Made by a program: the position numbers and the translations under genes
The notes under the pieces: model-generated
What the model saw: the letters and a program-made list of their open reading frames with translations, nothing else
What the model was told of the DNA's origin: nothing
Database searches by the model: none
DNA from: SAR86 cluster bacterium
Lineage (GTDB): Bacteria > Pseudomonadota > Gammaproteobacteria > Magnimaribacterales > D2472
Assembly: GCA_023703615.1 (NCBI GenBank)
Contig: CP097971.1
Coordinates: forward strand, 790,315 to 854,314
DNA length: 64,000 nt
Reading direction: 5' to 3'
Part shown: one piece after another, positions 7,102-15,280 of the stretch
Position numbering within the stretch: the first letter of the stretch is position 1
How the letters are laid out: every line of letters begins with the position of its first letter

Positions 7102-8376
7102 TTATTCAAACTGTTTATCTGCACTTGAAAATATTAAATAATAAGTTCCGCCAAATACTAGAACGCTGCTACAAATAAAAAATATAAGGTTCCATGAGTT
7201 AGTCAATTCTAAGATAAATCCAGCAGCTATTGGACTTAAAATAGCTGCAATCATCGCAAGACTTCCTGAGATTCCTACTAGTGATCCAGTATATTTAGGA
7301 CCCAAATCTGCGTGATTTACGCCAAAACCGCCAGCTGCTATTCCGCTACAAATGTTTGTCAAACATAATAATAATATTATTAACAAAATTGATTCTTGAA
7401 AAGGAATAATAGTCAAACATATTGCAGAACCAAAAAAGCCGATTGTATTTACTGACCTTCTTACCTTTATAATTTTGAAACCATTTTTGATTAGGCTGTC
7501 AGCTAAAAAACCCCCACAAATTAATGAAAAAACTGAAACAATGCTTGGAATTAAAATTAGTAAAATAAAAGTTCCAGAATCTAAATCAATCCCAAGCCCT
7601 CCAGATAATTCAGAAGCATTAACGTATTTTGGTAGATATGACAAAAAAGTGTACAAAGACCAGTTATTGCAAAAAGTAGCAATGACAATTGCAATAAAAG
7701 GTCCATTTTTAATTAAATCATAAAAAGGTACTGATTTTGCAGCAGAGCTTGCAGGAGCCTCTCTTTGAATTAAATCAAGTTCATATTTAGTTATTTTTTT
7801 ATGATCTTCTGGATATGAAGTAACTAATTTTTGCCAGAAAAAAAACCAGAAAACACCTAAAGCACCAAACGAATAAAATACCCATTCCCATGAGTAATTC
7901 TCCATAATCAAGGCTGCTACAACTAAACCAAATACTGTACCAACTGCTATGCCACTATTGGTAACTGCAATTGTTCTTGTTCTTTCATTAAAAGGTATCC
8001 ATCTTGCGTATAAAGAATGCCATGATGGAAATGTGATACCCTCACCTAGTCCCATTAATATTCTAATAAAAATTAAAAGAAAAAAGCCACTGTAAGCAAA
8101 TGCTGGTGTAATAATTGTAAAAAATGACCAAAGAAGAAGTCCGTAGGCTAAAACTCTTTTACCTCCATATTTATCAGCTAAATATCCTCCCACTGTCATT
8201 GAAATCATGTAGCCTATATAGAAAGAACTCAAAATAAGTCCAACCTGTGATTCGCTCCAACCGAATTGTTCTTGCATAGGAATAATAGTTACTGAAATGT
8301 TAACTCTGTCTATGTAACAAATAAAAACAGCCAAAAATGACATAAAAACAACTCTGAATCTAATTGGTAATGACAT
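7102..8376 (-). CDS. MFS transporter, anion:cation symporter (ACS) type
   Basis: This is a 424-residue inner-membrane major facilitator with about 12 helices. The N-terminal pattern IDRVNISVTIIPMQEQFGWS, the loop 2-3 motif GGYLADKYGGKRV, and LMGLGEGITFPSWHSLYARW are typical of the ACS/SLC17-like branch that carries organic anions. It starts 4 bp after the argH stop on the same strand, so it is probably the last gene of the arginine operon. It may therefore move a substrate linked to arginine metabolism, but the substrate cannot be read from sequence. Confidence 0.85.
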   Translation of the reverse strand: MSLPIRFRVVFMSFLAVFICYIDRVNISVTIIPMQEQFGWSESQVGLILSSFYIGYMISMTVGGYLADKYGGKRVLAYGLLLWSFFTIITPAFAYSGFFLLIFIRILMGLGEGITFPSWHSLYARWIPFNERTRTIAVTNSGIAVGTVFGLVVAALIMENYSWEWVFYSFGALGVFWFFFWQKLVTSYPEDHKKITKYELDLIQREAPASSAAKSVPFYDLIKNGPFIAIVIATFCNNWSLYTFLSYLPKYVNASELSGGLGIDLDSGTFILLILIPSIVSVFSLICGGFLADSLIKNGFKIIKVRRSVNTIGFFGSAICLTIIPFQESILLIILLLCLTNICSGIAAGGFGVNHADLGPKYTGSLVGISGSLAMIAAILSPIAAGFILELTNSWNLIFFICSSVLVFGGTYYLIFSSADKQFE

Positions 8377-8380
8377 TTAG

Positions 8381-9664
8381 CTATCTTATCTTTGTCAGTC
8401 GTTTTTTGAGAATGTTTAATTCAAGATTTTTTGGAGAACCTAGTGAATAATTTTTAGATTTAACTGTGTTAATTTTTTTGTCAACTGGATTATTTTTTAC
8501 AAGATCATATGCATCTCTAAAAGACATACCGGTAGCAACATATTCGTATACTTTATCAGTCATCATCATATCCTCATTGATGTATTTGCTTGAATTTGTT
8601 TTATTTACTTTAATTGATTTAAGAATATCTGGAATTATAGATAATGTTTGAAAACATATAATAAAAGAAGAAACTAAACTTCTTTTGGTGAGTTGAAGAT
8701 CTCTGTGATAACCACTTGGTAATGATAATAGGTTTTCTAATTCAGAGGATAAACCTGCAAGAATTGAATAGTTAGCTCTAATTATCTCTATAACATCAGG
8801 GTTACTTTTATTTGGCATTATTGATGATCCAGTTGAATATTTATTATCAATTGACAATAAATTAAACTCTTGAGACAAAAACAAACTCATATCCCATGCA
8901 AATTTTCTCAAATCAAGCATAGGTTGTTTAAGAGTATTTATTATTTGCATTTCATATTTACCTCTACTATTTTGAGCATAGAGACTATTTATTTGTATTC
9001 GATTGAAACCTAAATCTTTAGTGGTCTTTTTTCTATCAAGTGGCAAGGCGACACCATATCCAGCTGCAGTACCAAGCGGATTTGAATCAATCCAATCAAT
9101 TGTTTTAATTATTAAATCAATATTATCAATGAAAGATTCAGCGAATGATGCAAACCATAAGCCCCACGAGGATGGCATAGCTCTTTGAATGTGCGTATAT
9201 CCTGGCATTGGAATTTTTTCATGTTTAAATGCTAGTGTTAAAAACTTACTTGCAATTAATTTATTTTGATTTTTAATATTAATTAATTGCTCTTTTGCAA
9301 ATAATCTAGTTGCAACTAAAACCTGATCATTTCTGCTTCTACCCGTATGAATTTTTTTCCCAATATCGCCTAATTCCTTTATCAAGAAAATTTCAATCGC
9401 AGAATGACAATCTTCATATTTATTACTTAACTTAAATGAACCATTAATATAATTTAATTTTAATTCTTTAAGTTTTTTTAATATTTTTGACTCTTCACTA
9501 GCCTTCAGTATATCAATTGACCTTAAAGACTTTACATGCGCAATTGTTCCATCAATGTCATGAACAAATATATATTTATCAAGCTCTATATCATCAGATG
9601 ATAAGAATAAATCTATTTCTTTTGATGATTTAATATTTTTTGTGTTCCATATCTTCTTATTCAT
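8381..9664 (-). CDS. argH: Argininosuccinate lyase
   Basis: This enzyme cleaves argininosuccinate to arginine and fumarate, the last step of arginine synthesis. It has 427 residues (E. coli about 457). Family motifs are HTGRSRNDQV (106-115), GYTHIQRA (155-162) and the signature GSSIMPNKSNPD (279-290), where the catalytic serine loop is intact although N and S replace the usual Q and K. It overlaps argC by 8 bp and is followed by the MFS gene, so it is translated as part of the operon. The enzyme is short at the C-terminus but looks functional. Confidence 0.93.
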   Translation of the reverse strand: MNKKIWNTKNIKSSKEIDLFLSSDDIELDKYIFVHDIDGTIAHVKSLRSIDILKASEESKILKKLKELKLNYINGSFKLSNKYEDCHSAIEIFLIKELGDIGKKIHTGRSRNDQVLVATRLFAKEQLINIKNQNKLIASKFLTLAFKHEKIPMPGYTHIQRAMPSSWGLWFASFAESFIDNIDLIIKTIDWIDSNPLGTAAGYGVALPLDRKKTTKDLGFNRIQINSLYAQNSRGKYEMQIINTLKQPMLDLRKFAWDMSLFLSQEFNLLSIDNKYSTGSSIMPNKSNPDVIEIIRANYSILAGLSSELENLLSLPSGYHRDLQLTKRSLVSSFIICFQTLSIIPDILKSIKVNKTNSSKYINEDMMMTDKVYEYVATGMSFRDAYDLVKNNPVDKKINTVKSKNYSLGSPKNLELNILKKRLTKIR

Positions 9665-10595
9665 AGTTAACTCCTGTTAAATCATCAAAACCACAAGCAG
9701 CATTTATATTTTGAATAACCTGAGTTGCTGCTCCTTTAAGAAGATTGTCTAAAGTGCAACATAGTGTCAAATGTTGTTTATTTTCATCAAGGGAGAACCC
9801 GCCTATTTCAACAGTATGAGTATTTATAATTTCATTGATCATTGGAATATCTTTTTTAATATTAATTAACTTAGAATTTTCATAAAAATTTTTATACATG
9901 TTAAAAATATTTTCTACGCTGTTTTTCTTCTTTAATTTTAATTTTGATGTTACTAATATACCCCTAAAAAAACTTGCTACATGGGGAGAAAAATGGATCT
10001 GTTTATAAAGATTCATTCTGACTTCATTCTCATGAGCATGTCCAGATAGTGAGTATGGAATTAGGTTATTTTCCAGTTTTGATTGATTATTTCTTGAATT
10101 AGGAGTTGCTCCCGCCCCACTATAGCCAGAAATACCAATAGAATTAATATCCCCGTCGACTAAATCCATAATAGGTGCTATTGATAATTGCATTGCAGTT
10201 GCATAACAACCAGGATTGCTAATGGTTTTTGAACCATTATATTTTCTTAATTCAGGCAGTCTATAATGCCAAGCATTGTCTGTTCTAAAGTCAGAGCTTA
10301 TATCAATAAAAATAATTTGATTATTTATTTTATTAATGATATCAAAATATGATTTAGCTTTACCATTGGGCATTGCTAGGATAACTACATCTACACCATC
10401 TATATTCATTTCGGATTTTTTTAACGGGGAAAATTTTAAGTCTTTATTACAAGAATTTTTTACTTGCGCACCTGCATTAGAACTTGAAAACACTTTAGTA
10501 AGATTTAAGTTTGGGTGATTATCTAAAATAGATATTATTTCTTGGCCCACATACCCTCTGCCACCAAGCATTGCAATATTTAATTTATTTTTCAT
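9657..10595 (-). CDS. argC: N-acetyl-gamma-glutamyl-phosphate reductase
   Basis: This enzyme reduces N-acetylglutamyl phosphate to the semialdehyde with NADPH. It has 312 residues. The nucleotide-binding GGRGYVGQE (11-19) and the active-site SNPGCYATA with Cys130 are clear, and the conserved LPEL and SGYSGAG follow. It overlaps the upstream argB/A fusion by 11 bp and the downstream argH by 8 bp, so translation is probably coupled. Confidence 0.93.
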   Translation of the reverse strand: MKNKLNIAMLGGRGYVGQEIISILDNHPNLNLTKVFSSSNAGAQVKNSCNKDLKFSPLKKSEMNIDGVDVVILAMPNGKAKSYFDIINKINNQIIFIDISSDFRTDNAWHYRLPELRKYNGSKTISNPGCYATAMQLSIAPIMDLVDGDINSIGISGYSGAGATPNSRNNQSKLENNLIPYSLSGHAHENEVRMNLYKQIHFSPHVASFFRGILVTSKLKLKKKNSVENIFNMYKNFYENSKLINIKKDIPMINEIINTHTVEIGGFSLDENKQHLTLCCTLDNLLKGAATQVIQNINAACGFDDLTGVNYE

Positions 10596-11895
10596 AATTT
10601 ATAGTAGCTGGTTTACTAGAGGCAGATTCAATGCATTTTGTTAATTCTTTTAAATCACTTATTCCAATCCAAAAAATATTCCAATCCTCATATCTTTGAA
10701 AACCATCACATACTTGCATGTAAAATTTGTTTATAGAATTATTTGGCCTTGATCTCCAGAATACCTTTGAATGATCAACTAACATTCTTTTCCAAATTGC
10801 ATTACCTAATCCTTCTCCTCTAGCTTTATCAATAACTGCGAATTTGTCCATATAAGGTATGGAATCTTCAAAAGTCATCACAATAGCAGCTCTTTTGCAT
10901 GAACTTAAATAATATTCTTTATTCTCGTTATCAAAATAATTACTTACGAGCTTTCCATTAAAGGATTTTTCAAGAACTAACTGCAATGACCTTTGTTCTT
11001 CATGATCTAAAATATCTTTTTTATTTATTTCGTGTCCAGATTTAATTAAAGTTCCAAAACCTGCATCTGTGAATAACTCTTTATTGAGATTAATTGGCTT
11101 TGTAATAGATATCGAACTACTGGTTGGTAATATATTTAATAAAAGTTTTATTTGTTCTAACTTTAATTTCATGCCTGAGTGAAGCCAATCTTTTGTCATC
11201 AATTTATCATAATCATCCTTAATATTTATCGTAGAAATCAATTGGTCTTGTTCATCTAAAATTCCGCCGGTTTCACTCAAGAAAATAATTTTATCTGGTG
11301 AAATTTCCTTTGCTATAGCTATAGTCGCGTTATCAGCATTAATATTTACAAATTCACCCTCTTCTGTTGCTCCAAGTGGAGATATTACAGGTATAGACTG
11401 AGTTGATAAAATATTTTTTAGCTCTTCGGAATTAGTTTCTACTATTTCACCAACATGCCCAAGATCTTTATCTTTAATTTTACATGTAAAGATGCCCTGG
11501 TTTATAGGAGTGGCATTTACTCCATTTGCTTCAAGCGATTTACATAGTTGATTATTAGTTTCATCAAATACCCTTATAGCAATTTTAAGCACTTCGTCAG
11601 TGGTTATTCTTTGTCCATTTTTAAATGAAAACTTAACTTTTGACTCCTCAAGCTTTTTGGATAGCATTGGCCCTGCGCCATGAACAATAATTGGTCTTAG
11701 GCCAACTTCGTTTAAAAAAAGTAATGAGGAAACTAAACTTTCCAAATCATCTCTTATAATTGCGCCACCAACTTTAATAACCGCAAACCTGTAATCATCT
11801 GATGAAAACCTTTCAAGATATTTTCTTATTTCCTTTTCACTACTCATTCCACCCAATAACTTAAGGACTGTTTCTTTAGTAAATGCCTTATCCAT
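10585..11895 (-). CDS. Bifunctional N-acetylglutamate kinase / N-acetylglutamate synthase
   Basis: This 436-residue protein has an amino-acid kinase domain (about 30-290) with FAVIKVGGAII, IIVHGAGPML and NINADNATIAIA. It is followed by a C-terminal acetyltransferase domain of the DUF619/NAT type (about 300-430) with IPYMDKFAVID and GEGLGNAIWKRM. This is the plan of the NAGS-K enzymes described in Xanthomonas and related to vertebrate NAGS. Here one polypeptide is predicted to acetylate glutamate and phosphorylate the product, the first two steps of the pathway. It lies 2 bp after argG and overlaps argC, so no separate argA or argB is needed in the operon. Which activities remain needs assay; the two domains are clear. 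Confidence 0.85.
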   Translation of the reverse strand: MDKAFTKETVLKLLGGMSSEKEIRKYLERFSSDDYRFAVIKVGGAIIRDDLESLVSSLLFLNEVGLRPIIVHGAGPMLSKKLEESKVKFSFKNGQRITTDEVLKIAIRVFDETNNQLCKSLEANGVNATPINQGIFTCKIKDKDLGHVGEIVETNSEELKNILSTQSIPVISPLGATEEGEFVNINADNATIAIAKEISPDKIIFLSETGGILDEQDQLISTINIKDDYDKLMTKDWLHSGMKLKLEQIKLLLNILPTSSSISITKPINLNKELFTDAGFGTLIKSGHEINKKDILDHEEQRSLQLVLEKSFNGKLVSNYFDNENKEYYLSSCKRAAIVMTFEDSIPYMDKFAVIDKARGEGLGNAIWKRMLVDHSKVFWRSRPNNSINKFYMQVCDGFQRYEDWNIFWIGISDLKELTKCIESASSKPATINYEK

Positions 11896-11897
11896 AA

Positions 11898-13088
11898 TTA
11901 TTTTTTATTAACACTTGTCCAAGTTGCAGTGCTTTGACCAAGCAATTTAATGAAACCTTGTGATTCTTCAACCCCCCAAGATGCGGATTGTGCATATATT
12001 GCTTCGTTGCTGATAAGTATTTTTTTTGCGTCTACGGAAATAGCGTCCACTCTGCCAGAACTCAATGTTAAAGTTACTTGTCCATTTACTGATTTTTGAA
12101 TATCCTCTAAAAAAGTCTCTAAATTTCTTGTTAGGGGATCAAAGTAAAATCCACCATATACCAATTCAACCCACTTCTTACCTATTATTGGCTTAAAAAA
12201 GTTTTGCTTATCAGTAAAAACTGCCTCCTCAAGTGCTCTGTGAGCTCTTTGAAGGATAGTTATGCCAGGTGCTTCGAATATAAATCTTCCTTTAATGCCG
12301 ATGATAGTATCGCTTGCAAAGATTTCTCTTCCAATACCATATTTTCCACCAATTCCATTTAGTTTTTTTAACAAATCAGGGCCTTTAATTGATTTATTGT
12401 TTAATTTCTTAGCTACTCCATTTTTAAAATCAATTGTAATTTTTTTACTTTTTTTAGGATAATTTTCTGGAGTTGAGCATATGATATAGCTTTCATTTGA
12501 TGGTTTCTTCCATTGGTCAATTTCTGAACCAGATATAGTAGCTCCCATGAGATTTTCATTAACACTATATTTTGAACTAAGTGATGAAATTTTATATCCT
12601 CTTTCTTTTAAGAAATCTTCTTCGTAGCCCCTTACATTAGAAATTTTATTTTGAATCTCTCTTATTGGAGTTATCGTATTAAATTTACCAAAAGACTGAA
12701 TAGATAAATCAAATCTTACTTGATCATTACCCATTCCAGTGCATCCATGAGAGATATAATTAGTTTTCAATTTTTTGCATAATTTGATCGCCTCTTTCAC
12801 TATTAGATATCTGTCAGAACATAAAGCAGGATATTTGTCTTGATAGGATGCCCCAGACCAGATAAGTGGTTTAATAATTTCATCCCACAGTTGAACATCA
12901 ACATTTGTATTAATATGTTTTTTTGCACCTAGCTCAATTGCTCTTTTTGAAATTTTATTTTCTTCAGATTTTGATATACCACCTGTGTTAACAAAAATTG
13001 TATGCACCTCAAAATTCTTTTCAATTAAATAAGGTACACAAAAACTTGTATCAAGACCGCCTGAAAATGCTAATACTATTTTTTTCAT
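11898..13088 (-). CDS. argG: Argininosuccinate synthase
   Basis: This enzyme joins citrulline and aspartate with ATP. It has 396 residues with the PP-loop SGGLDTS at 9-15, followed by the family segments SHGCTGMGNDQVRF and the SSKYSVNENLMG region. The start overlaps the end of the carbamoyltransferase gene by 4 bp (ATGA), so the two are translationally coupled. In an acetylornithine pathway its substrate citrulline must be released from acetylcitrulline by a deacetylase not found in this window. Confidence 0.94.
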   Translation of the reverse strand: MKKIVLAFSGGLDTSFCVPYLIEKNFEVHTIFVNTGGISKSEENKISKRAIELGAKKHINTNVDVQLWDEIIKPLIWSGASYQDKYPALCSDRYLIVKEAIKLCKKLKTNYISHGCTGMGNDQVRFDLSIQSFGKFNTITPIREIQNKISNVRGYEEDFLKERGYKISSLSSKYSVNENLMGATISGSEIDQWKKPSNESYIICSTPENYPKKSKKITIDFKNGVAKKLNNKSIKGPDLLKKLNGIGGKYGIGREIFASDTIIGIKGRFIFEAPGITILQRAHRALEEAVFTDKQNFFKPIIGKKWVELVYGGFYFDPLTRNLETFLEDIQKSVNGQVTLTLSSGRVDAISVDAKKILISNEAIYAQSASWGVEESQGFIKLLGQSTATWTSVNKK

Positions 13089-14089
13089 AATTTTTTTCCA
13101 ATTAATTTGGTTAATAATGACTTTTGAACATGTTTTCTATTTTGTGCTTCTTGAATTGCGACACAATAGTTAGAATCCATTACCTCATCAGTTGCTTTTA
13201 TATTTCTTCTTAATGGAAGACAATGACTGAATAAAGCTTTATTTGTATGATCCATTTTTTCCTGATCAACAATAAAATGCTTATATTTATCTCTTATTAA
13301 TTTTTCATCCTCAACACTTCCATAGTAGTTTAATGATCCCCAACTTTTTGCATAGACTATATCCGCACCCTCATAAGCTTCTTTAATATCATGATGTATT
13401 GAAAATGATTTTTTATTTTTTTTACAATTTGACTGAGCCTCTGATATGAAGCTCTCATGAAGAATATAGTCTTTATTAGGGCATAAAAGCTTGATGTTCA
13501 TACCAAATTTGCTAGCAACAAGAAGAGAAGAGTTGGCAACAGCAGTATTTAAAGGTTTAGGGTGATAAGTCCATGTAAGGAGATAGTTTTTATTGGATAG
13601 ATCACCTAATTTTTCTTGCATTGTAAGAATATGAGCTAGCTCCTGACAAGGATGTGTAATACTTTCCATGTTTACAACTGGGACTGAAGAATGCTCAGCA
13701 AATGATCTTAAAATAATATCACTAATGTCTTCATCAACATTTTGAAATTTAGGAAAGGCTCTTACAGCAATTAAATCACAATAATCAGATAAAACTTTTG
13801 CAACCTCAATGATATGTTCTTCATTATCACCGTCCATTATAGCGTTTGGTTTAAATTCTATTGGCCAAGCATCCTTTCCAGGATGTAATATCACTGCATA
13901 TCCACCTAACTCATTAATTCCTACTTCAAAACTTGTTCTTGTTCTCATTGATGGATTAAAAAAAAGCAGAGCAACAGACTTATTTTCTAACGTTTTATGA
14001 AATTTTTCCTTTTTCAAAAAGCTAGCATAATCAAGTAGATCTTGAAGTTCATCTTTGGCCCATTCTGACGTTGTAATAAAATTTTTCAT
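13085..14089 (-). CDS. argF': N-acetylornithine carbamoyltransferase (AOTCase)
   Basis: This is predicted to transfer a carbamoyl group to N-acetylornithine, giving N-acetylcitrulline. The 334-residue protein has FFNPSMRTRTSFE (43-55), PGKDAWPIEF, DGDNEEH, ITHPCQELAH and HCLPLRRNIKATD (289-301). These follow the Xanthomonas AOTCase as I remember it, not classical ornithine carbamoyltransferase. Glu90 aligns with Glu92, which selects acetyl over succinyl substrate, and Lys298 with the carboxylated Lys302. It is the first gene of the operon; its ATG follows an intrinsic terminator within the leader. Against a plain OTCase: the DAWPIEF and LTWTYHPKPLNTAVANS segments. Confident on class, less on exact substrate. 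Confidence 0.87.
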   Translation of the reverse strand: MKNFITTSEWAKDELQDLLDYASFLKKEKFHKTLENKSVALLFFNPSMRTRTSFEVGINELGGYAVILHPGKDAWPIEFKPNAIMDGDNEEHIIEVAKVLSDYCDLIAVRAFPKFQNVDEDISDIILRSFAEHSSVPVVNMESITHPCQELAHILTMQEKLGDLSNKNYLLTWTYHPKPLNTAVANSSLLVASKFGMNIKLLCPNKDYILHESFISEAQSNCKKNKKSFSIHHDIKEAYEGADIVYAKSWGSLNYYGSVEDEKLIRDKYKHFIVDQEKMDHTNKALFSHCLPLRRNIKATDEVMDSNYCVAIQEAQNRKHVQKSLLTKLIGKKL

Positions 14090-14097
14090 AGTTTCCT

Positions 14098-14126
14098 AAA
14101 AACAAAAAACCCAGCAAATGCTGGGT
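14098..14126 (-). terminator. Attenuator terminator in arg leader
   Basis: On the minus strand a 7-bp stem (ACCCAGC/GCTGGGT, 4-nt loop, 14109-14126) runs straight into TTTTTTGTTTTT. It lies just before the argF' ATG at 14089 and downstream of a good promoter. It therefore cannot serve the upstream GH16 gene alone and is placed to stop transcription before argF'. Confidence 0.85.
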
Positions 14127-14179
14127 CAAATATACATAACAATGTCCCAGCTTAAATAGCTAAAACCCGTCTGTTATGT
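14120..14179 (-). promoter_or_regulatory. Alternative leader hairpins (pause 1:2 and antiterminator 2:3)
   Basis: Three mutually competing pairings can be drawn on the minus strand. ACATAACA (14172-14179, inside the leader-peptide His-Asn-Arg codons) pairs with TGTTATGT (14134-14141). GCTGGG (14146-14151, right after the peptide stop) pairs with CCCAGC (14120-14125), which is the 5' arm of the terminator. The terminator itself forms if that arm is free. A ribosome stalled at the Arg codons would cover the first element and favour the antiterminator. This is read by eye; no folding energies were computed. Confidence 0.7.
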
Positions 14180-14196
14180 GTTGTAGTTATATTCAT
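14152..14196 (-). CDS. Arginine leader peptide, 14 residues
   Basis: The short frame reads MNITTTHNRRVLAI then TAA. It contains tandem Arg codons AGA CGG at codons 9-10. It begins just inside the predicted transcript start, ends immediately before the antiterminator element, and precedes an intrinsic terminator and argF'. This is the standard arrangement of amino-acid operon leader peptides (trp, his, leu), here with the regulatory residue matching the operon's product. No strong Shine-Dalgarno precedes its ATG, which lies close to the predicted 5' end, so it may be translated from a nearly leaderless start. Function is inferred from position and codon content. Confidence 0.7.
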   Translation of the reverse strand: MNITTTHNRRVLAI

Positions 14197-14204
14197 CGGT
14201 GATA

Positions 14205-14232
14205 ATTATATATAGAAATGCAGTTTTGTAAA
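14205..14232 (-). promoter_or_regulatory. Promoter of the arginine operon
   Basis: A sigma-70 type promoter on the minus strand has TTTACA (14227-14232), a 16-bp spacer and a perfect TATAAT (14205-14210). The -35 box begins 1 bp past the stop codon of the upstream GH16 gene. Predicted start is near 14198, only a few bases before the leader-peptide ATG, giving a leader of roughly 110 nt. Confidence 0.7.
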
Positions 14233-14233
14233 C

Positions 14234-15280
14234 TTATTCAACAAGAAGCTCATACTCAATCCAATCTACTATAAACCTTTGCTGATCAGGATTTTCTTTA
14301 TTTGTGCATAATCTATTCTTACAAAATGCATCATAATCCACCCAATAATCATCATAAATTCCTCCTACAGCTACATTAATAATCATATAGTATGTGGAAT
14401 TAAACGGATAACTAAATTTTTTAAATTCTGGGTGATTACTATCAATTCGAAAATAAGGTTCACTTTCATTGTCTAAATAAAAACTTATCTCATCTTCTAA
14501 CCATTTCAATGTAATAGAATGAAATTTATCAATAAATCTTACTTTTCTAGGAATTAAAGCTTCACCAACAAGTGTTGATTTGTTTGTTGGAGTCTTGCCA
14601 AAGTGCAAAGCTGAACTAGCAATATTTGAAATTCTTCCCCTATGCTCAATTATATCTATTTCACCACCTTGAGGCCATTGCACATCTTTATCAGGCATTA
14701 GCCAAAAAGCTGGCCAAAAACCAATACCTTTTGGTACCTTGAAACAAATAGTTATTTTTGATGGATAAGTAAATGACTTTAAGCTTTTTGTATTGATTCT
14801 CGCTGACGTATAATTAAATCCAAAATATGGTTTTTTTTTGTTATAGATTGGTTGAATTTTCAAATATCCATCTTCAATAAATAAGTTATTAGTTACATTC
14901 TTAATTTTTTCGTTTTCAATTTTTTCTTTCAGAATAAGATTTTCACCAGATACGTCATCTATGTGATGATGTTCATTAAATCTAGTATTTCGTTGAGGTT
15001 TTGTATAGTACTGTAATTCACCATTTCCCCAGCCTGAAATGTATTGTCCATTATAATTAAAACCGTTAGATACTGAGTATTGCCAATTCTCCTTTGAAAG
15101 TGAATCACCATTAAAATCTTCAAACCATGTCAATATGCTCGGATCAGATCTGTTCTTACAGTATGAATTTTTTTCTTGAGCAAAATCATCAGAATTAATA
15201 ATTTTTCTTACTTCGATTGTCTTATTTTCGCTCAATAAAGAAGGGATAATTAAAAGAGATAATAAAATTCTATAATTCAT
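14234..15280 (-). CDS. Exported GH16 beta-glucanase (laminarinase-like)
   Basis: This 348-residue glycoside hydrolase has an N-terminal signal peptide (MNYRILLSLLIIPSLLS). The GH16 catalytic signature is GGEIDIIEHRG, with nucleophile Glu207, Asp209 and acid/base Glu212. Other GH16 segments are FEDFNGDSLSKENWQY near the mature N-terminus, GIGFWPAFWLMP before the active site, and MIINVAVGG near the end. It probably cuts beta-1,3 or mixed-linkage glucans such as algal laminarin in the periplasm or outside. It stands alone between tRNA-Leu and the arginine operon, with no SusCD-like or transport partner beside it. Confidence 0.88.
   Translation of the reverse strand: MNYRILLSLLIIPSLLSENKTIEVRKIINSDDFAQEKNSYCKNRSDPSILTWFEDFNGDSLSKENWQYSVSNGFNYNGQYISGWGNGELQYYTKPQRNTRFNEHHHIDDVSGENLILKEKIENEKIKNVTNNLFIEDGYLKIQPIYNKKKPYFGFNYTSARINTKSLKSFTYPSKITICFKVPKGIGFWPAFWLMPDKDVQWPQGGEIDIIEHRGRISNIASSALHFGKTPTNKSTLVGEALIPRKVRFIDKFHSITLKWLEDEISFYLDNESEPYFRIDSNHPEFKKFSYPFNSTYYMIINVAVGGIYDDYWVDYDAFCKNRLCTNKENPDQQRFIVDWIEYELLVE

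Follow-up and report, generated by a model that had tools for sequence, protein, structure and literature searches.

The leader that precedes argF' on the minus strand of a 64,000-nucleotide stretch of a SAR86 cluster genome (the window; the source genome consists of one contig of 1.23 Mb) is very probably a ribosome-mediated transcription attenuator of the trp/his type, reading the charging of arginyl-tRNA. The parts of this attenuator, their conservation, the covariation of its upstream helix (A:A'), its geometry and the absence of ArgR are observed. Translation of the leader, charging as the signal and a change of readthrough in response are inferred, there being no expression data. In most model bacteria arginine biosynthesis is under the control of the ArgR repressor or of T-boxes; the attenuator, if true, would reveal how arginine is regulated in an abundant, streamlined and largely uncultured ocean lineage that lacks ArgR.

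Organisation of the leader and the arginine operon

The elements of the leader follow one another on the minus strand in the order promoter, 14-codon frame, segment 2, spacer with segment A', terminator and argF'. Together with the neighbouring genes they are as follows:

TTTACA 14232-14227 and TATAAT 14210-14205, minus strand: sigma-70-type promoter, TTTACA-16-TATAAT, 11/12 match
14152..14196, minus strand: 14-codon leader ORF MNITTTHNRRVLAI plus TAA, judged from sequence to be leaderless or nearly so
14167..14172, minus strand: tandem Arg control codons AGA CGG (codons 9-10), with CGG, the invariant sensor codon, at 14169-14167
14172..14179, minus strand: segment A, ACATAACA, the 5' arm of the upstream stem, complementary to TGTTATGT and assessed by a partner-swap test
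14144..14151, minus strand: segment 2, GCTGGGAC, the 5' arm of the antiterminator, directly 3' of the stop
14134..14141, minus strand: segment A', TGTTATGT, in the spacer, predicted to pair with A if no ribosome covers A
14120..14127, minus strand: segment 3, GACCCAGC, common to antiterminator and terminator, its CCCAGC identical in 19/19 aligned rows
14104..14115, minus strand: segment 4, GCTGGGTT, and the U run of the intrinsic terminator
13085..14089, minus strand: argF', N-acetylornithine carbamoyltransferase (NF003384, E 3.5e-155, 516 bits, cut-off 288)
11898..13088, minus strand: argG, argininosuccinate synthase (TIGR00032, over cut-off)
10585..11895, minus strand: argB-type acetylglutamate kinase with a C-terminal extension (NF003387, over cut-off)
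9657..10595, minus strand: argC (TIGR01850, over cut-off)
8381..9664, minus strand: argH (TIGR00838, over cut-off)
7102..8376, minus strand: MFS transporter (PF07690), by synteny 3' of the arg genes or of a TonB receptor at this locus
14234-15280, minus strand: GH16 glycosidase-like gene, on the same strand and ending just upstream of the leader

The leader frame (14196-14152) consists of the codons ATG AAT ATA ACT ACA ACA CAT AAC AGA CGG GTT TTA GCT ATT TAA, and the terminator is GACCCAGC-ATTT-GCTGGGTT (14127-14108) with a U run to 14104, about 15 nt before the argF' ATG at 14089. The leader RNA folds at -30.5 kcal/mol, compared with -16.9 for dinucleotide shuffles (z = -4.8, with 0/200 shuffles as good). 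An earlier note on this DNA had described the TTTACA-16-TATAAT promoter and a short leader with a 14-codon peptide, all of which are present in the sequence. It had further claimed that the stop abuts a GCTGGG able to pair with the CCCAGC of the terminator 5' arm, which is borne out by GCTGGGAC at 14151-14144, and that an element within the peptide pairs with the spacer, where ACATAACA (14179-14172) and TGTTATGT (14141-14134) are indeed complementary. The tandem AGA CGG that it had taken as control codons is also there, but the claim has to be refined, as only the single rare CGG (codon 10) is invariant and the adjoining AGA is variable.

The -10 box is separated from the start codon by 8 nt in the window leader and by 6-9 nt in 48/49 of the leaders compared below. 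Inferred from this short spacing, the 5' end of the RNA should coincide with the AUG or fall one or two bases from it, with no Shine-Dalgarno site.

Control of the operon by ArgR would require the repressor to be encoded. The genome search for argR that the earlier note had called for found no PF01316 match in the window's own genome (0/1) and none over cut-off in the family genomes (0/107), with control genomes positive. Nor did the leader match any Rfam family at the gathering threshold, the sub-threshold matches being weak and to unrelated families (sRNAs), or any T-box or described riboswitch family.

Alternative pairings and ribosome placement

In the proposed mechanism, RNA polymerase would start at or beside the AUG of the 14-codon frame, and a ribosome would load on this nearly leaderless start and trail the polymerase. 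When arginyl-tRNA is scarce the ribosome would stall at CGG (codon 10) and cover segment A, leaving segment 2 free to pair with segment 3 before segment 4 has been synthesised; no terminator would then form and the arg operon would be transcribed. With enough arginine, the ribosome would reach the stop codon and cover segment 2, allowing the 3:4 terminator to form. Without a loaded ribosome, segment 2 would tend to be held by A:A' (and, in many species, also by a 1:2 hairpin), favouring termination.

Folding of the alternative structures, one of the checks suggested by the earlier note, agrees with this scheme. When the RNA up to and including segment 3 is folded, the 2:3 antiterminator forms in 25/25 leaders if the ribosome A site is on CGG, in 0/25 if the ribosome is at the stop, and in 10/25 without a ribosome. 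For these placements we took the footprint edge of the E. coli ribosome, about 15 nt beyond the first base of the P-site codon. A stall at CGG exposes the leader from about nucleotide 40 onwards, segment 2 begins at nucleotides 44-45, and the footprint of a ribosome at the stop reaches about nucleotide 55; the 14-codon length thus puts the ribosome footprint in the correct place relative to segment 2. In the full-length transcript with segment 4, at equilibrium, the 3:4 terminator beats the antiterminator in most leaders even with a stalled ribosome, and antitermination must therefore be kinetic. Kinetic antitermination is accepted for trp-type attenuators.

Covariation is seen in the upstream stem. 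The A:A' helix joins codons 5-9 to the stretch separating segments 2 and 3, and its sequence changes while its pairing is kept, different leaders having ACATAACA/TGTTATGT, ATACACAA/TTGTGTAT, TAACAAAAA/TTTTTGTTA and ATCACAA/TTGTGAT. When partners were swapped among species, 0/20,000 permutations reached the observed mean pairing energy, and a control pairing was far weaker. RNAalifold on the whole leader set recovered the terminator alone, missing A:A' because the helix slides in register, which is why the partner-swap test was used instead. Of the three stems in which the earlier note had looked for compensatory changes, A:A' covaries, and L123 and L125 show such a change (CCTAGC/GCTAGG) in the terminator, but the covariation of the 2:3 and 1:2 pairings did not go beyond chance in the partner-swap test. 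Segment 3 is nearly invariant, so covariation cannot judge 2:3, which has a mean pairing energy of -11 kcal/mol.

Three marks of a trp/his-type attenuator are in place: a promoter, short leader ORF and intrinsic terminator before an operon; conserved control codons specifying the amino acid that this operon makes (CGG in 49/49 leaders, tandem Arg in 26/28 arg leaders); and a shared segment, with segment 2 freed by the stall (25/25) and hidden by the ribosome at the stop (0/25). The 1:2, 2:3, 3:4 logic with codons matching the product, as first read from the letters alone, is supported by the conserved frame and CGG, the A:A' covariation, the placement folds and the lack of ArgR.

Conservation of the frame and competing readings

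argF' occurs in 47/107 genomes of the family; the searched genomes from other families of the order had none. Upstream of it, a leader with this terminator is present in 28 regions from six SAR86 genera. All of these (28/28) have exactly 14 codons with CGG as codon 10, a stop that overlaps or touches segment 2, and a distance to segment 3 that differs by a few bases only. It is this conservation in every recognisable argF' leader, across six genera, that sets the arrangement apart from chance. A further 21 leaders from family members without argF' were found with an RNA model, giving a set of 49. In this set the short frame and its Arg codon, which the earlier note had wanted aligned across relatives, are kept: CGG is in frame in 49/49, at codon 10 (11 in a few), the start is ATG in 43 and GTG in 6, the stop TAG in 44 and TAA in 5, and the length 14 codons in 44, 15 in 4 and 13 in 1. 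Internal stops are absent from frame 0 in 25/25 non-redundant leaders, compared with 3/25 and 7/25 for the shifted frames, a comparison that bears on translation only indirectly.

The peptide itself varies freely except for the invariant Arg. No third-codon-position bias was seen in it across the 49 leaders, as expected if only the control codon matters; such bias was dropped as a proof of translation, and the case for translation rests on the conservation of frame, start, stop and CGG. No synonymous Arg codon was found at codon 10 in the leaders compared, so that conservation of CGG(G) as a codon and its conservation as RNA cannot be told apart completely. The g7 leaders have CGGAGA instead of CGGG, and no conserved pairing partner for the GGG was seen.

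The reading that survives best beside the arginyl-tRNA attenuator, unlikely as we consider it, is that the leader measures ribosome speed, sensing a general slow-down of translation or the scarcity of one CGG-reading tRNA and not arginine as such. The invariant element is after all a single codon, and the rarest for arginine (2/630 Arg codons, 0.3%, in the coding sequences of the window). The tRNA-Arg genes seen have the anticodons UCU, CCU, UCG and ACG, with no CCG among the 30/34 tRNA loci of the genome that were examined, which makes the UCG tRNA the probable reader of CGG; moreover, 19/21 leaders of the TonB-dependent receptors described below lack a flanking second Arg codon. Against this, 26/28 arg-operon leaders do have a second Arg codon beside CGG, on a side that depends on the genus, and the cargo is arginine biosynthesis, or else the leader is present where that pathway is missing.

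We give very little credence to a riboswitch-like sensor of a small molecule or to a sensor of the nascent peptide. The stable alternating hairpins, and the precedents in speFL/ORF34 and other leaders, would suit either. However, the lack of an Rfam match noted above speaks against a riboswitch, as does an RNA conservation limited to CGG, segments 2-4 and the sliding helix, which is too little for an aptamer, and a peptide that varies everywhere but at one Arg speaks against a nascent-peptide sensor. Least tenable is the view that the upstream gene simply has its terminator here, together with a constitutive promoter, frame and pairings being incidental, for although the same-strand GH16 gene ends just upstream (14234) and a terminator then follows, the promoter sits between the two, many relatives keep the 14-codon frame, CGG and segment 2 with tRNA-Leu as upstream neighbour, A:A' covaries, and this conservation already contradicts it.

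Some matches outside this set were left aside. Other families of the SAR86 order gave R1 matches at E 1e-5 to 1e-2, which we take to be simple terminators, many of them being both-strand pairs at one site or matches to the terminator end only. The only strong class-level match outside the family, in G208 (L153), is a plain CCCCAGC/GCTGGGG terminator without a frame, before an alanine-dehydrogenase-like gene.

Genus g5 has argF' without this leader and in a different context. There the frame just 5' of argF' ends R-x-R-S-[L/I/V]-stop in 15/18 loci, either as the tail of panD (...IPTQRIRSL*; L021, L022, L025, L027, L031, L037, L043) or as a separate ORF of 37-56 residues (...INRRRRSI*; L026, L030, L034, L036, L040, L041, L035, L032). 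In several of these loci a small hairpin such as CACCAGCAATGGTG lies between the R-rich ending and argF'. These frames may constitute a second, unrelated arginine-responsive leader.

Probable exchange of the downstream gene and relation to known systems

In g8, about 20 genomes without argF' have the leader directly 5' of a TonB-dependent receptor of ~790 residues, with CGG again invariant. The claim that the attenuator stands in front of arginine biosynthesis thus holds at the argF' operon and has to be widened, since it also heads this receptor in species without argF' and a true argH. The locus has a shared order: two acyl-CoA-dehydrogenase-like genes (names read from sequence, without a profile search), two small genes, tRNA-Leu, in some cases GH16, the leader, argF'GBCH or the receptor, the MFS transporter and further shared genes. 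Among the 107 genomes 47 carry argF', 36 the receptor and one (G098) both (Fisher p 7e-11, phylogeny ignored); the contrast is weak within single genera (g8 p 0.05). Apart from G098, no receptor genome has an argH above cut-off. In this single-cell genome (L132, G098:C3:52000-69000) the receptor, the leader and a complete arg operon lie in tandem, and its receptor has no attenuator; the arrangement is possibly an intermediate or a recombinant of the exchange. The attenuator is also absent before the receptors of g3, g6, G049 and G088.

The species that have the receptor with the leader form a clade inside g8, beside the arg-bearing g8 genome, when a tree is built from the flanking MFS protein. 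This topology suggests a single replacement of the arg operon by the receptor under a retained leader. The receptor leaders have kept CGG, and their second Arg codon is mostly lost (present in 2/21 compared with 26/28 arg leaders). The leader of G044 (L108, G044:C2) matches that of G100 (g9) exactly, in a genome that is 59% complete, and stands before an MFS gene without a start, through deletion of the arg operon or as an assembly chimera; it was not used.

More tentatively, one arginyl-tRNA attenuator on a single ultra-rare CGG might control arginine supply in both settings, heading the arg operon in species that make arginine and, in sister species without the pathway, a TonB receptor at the same locus that imports arginine or arginine-containing compounds. 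That the cargo was switched in g8 and the sensor kept already belongs to the favoured attenuator reading. Arginine control of a TonB receptor is not self-evident, which counts against the attenuator reading. If the receptor is so regulated, uptake of arginine or arginine-rich matter is predicted in these putative arginine auxotrophs, and the exchange offers a way, open to testing, of finding what this otherwise anonymous receptor takes up.

Like the trp, his, leu, thr, ilv and phe attenuators of Proteobacteria, the SAR86 leader combines a short ORF carrying codons for the product, a stop beside segment 2, mutually exclusive 2:3 and 3:4 pairings and an unconserved peptide. It differs from the classical trp/his type in its arginine specificity, the essential lack of a 5' UTR, its single invariant rare codon and the exchange of its cargo for a TonB-dependent receptor. 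The use of the rarest Arg codon as sensor resembles leuL, which uses rare Leu codons; the pairing of such a codon with a nearly leaderless ORF bears on theories of control-codon choice. Leader ORFs on leaderless or nearly leaderless transcripts are found in the trpL of Sinorhizobium and in actinobacterial amino-acid leaders, which are similar in this respect but serve other amino acids in other clades. The fungal arginine attenuator peptide, encoded by a uORF, is likewise arginine-responsive, but this eukaryotic arrest peptide is conserved and acts on translation, whereas the SAR86 peptide is not conserved.

With speFL/ORF34 of Salmonella and E. coli, the SAR86 leader shares two consecutive Arg codons in a leader ORF. 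In Salmonella these codons sense arginine within an ORF of 34 codons that has a conserved HIRRTxHIMM core and lies before speF (PMC6386406). That leader acts via Rho, RBS access and RNase G on ornithine decarboxylase, whereas the SAR86 leader has an intrinsic terminator before arginine biosynthesis; with its 14 codons, unconserved peptide and different cargo, we rejected it as a member of the speFL/ORF34 type. Arginine T-boxes place arginine under RNA control in other bacteria (PMC1262725) and also sense Arg-tRNA charging for arginine genes, but they bind the tRNA directly and the SAR86 leader has no T-box match. A survey of Actinobacteria saw no leader-peptide attenuator for arginine (PMC1262725). 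Our literature search, which did not cover most subscription journals, brought up no earlier description of arginine biosynthesis under a leader-peptide attenuator, in line with the earlier remark that none was known in this group.

Two neighbours of the leader deserve mention in their own right. The GH16 gene is mobile at this locus: in the comparison of the window with L116, L118 and L121 it lies 5' of the leader in some genomes and 3' of the TonB receptor in others. The MFS transporter (7102-8376; L132-L150) has organic-anion/phosphate types as its best NCBIfam models, below their cut-offs. It follows the arg operon or the TonB receptor, but precedes the receptor in g3, and it may serve the same pathway as they do.
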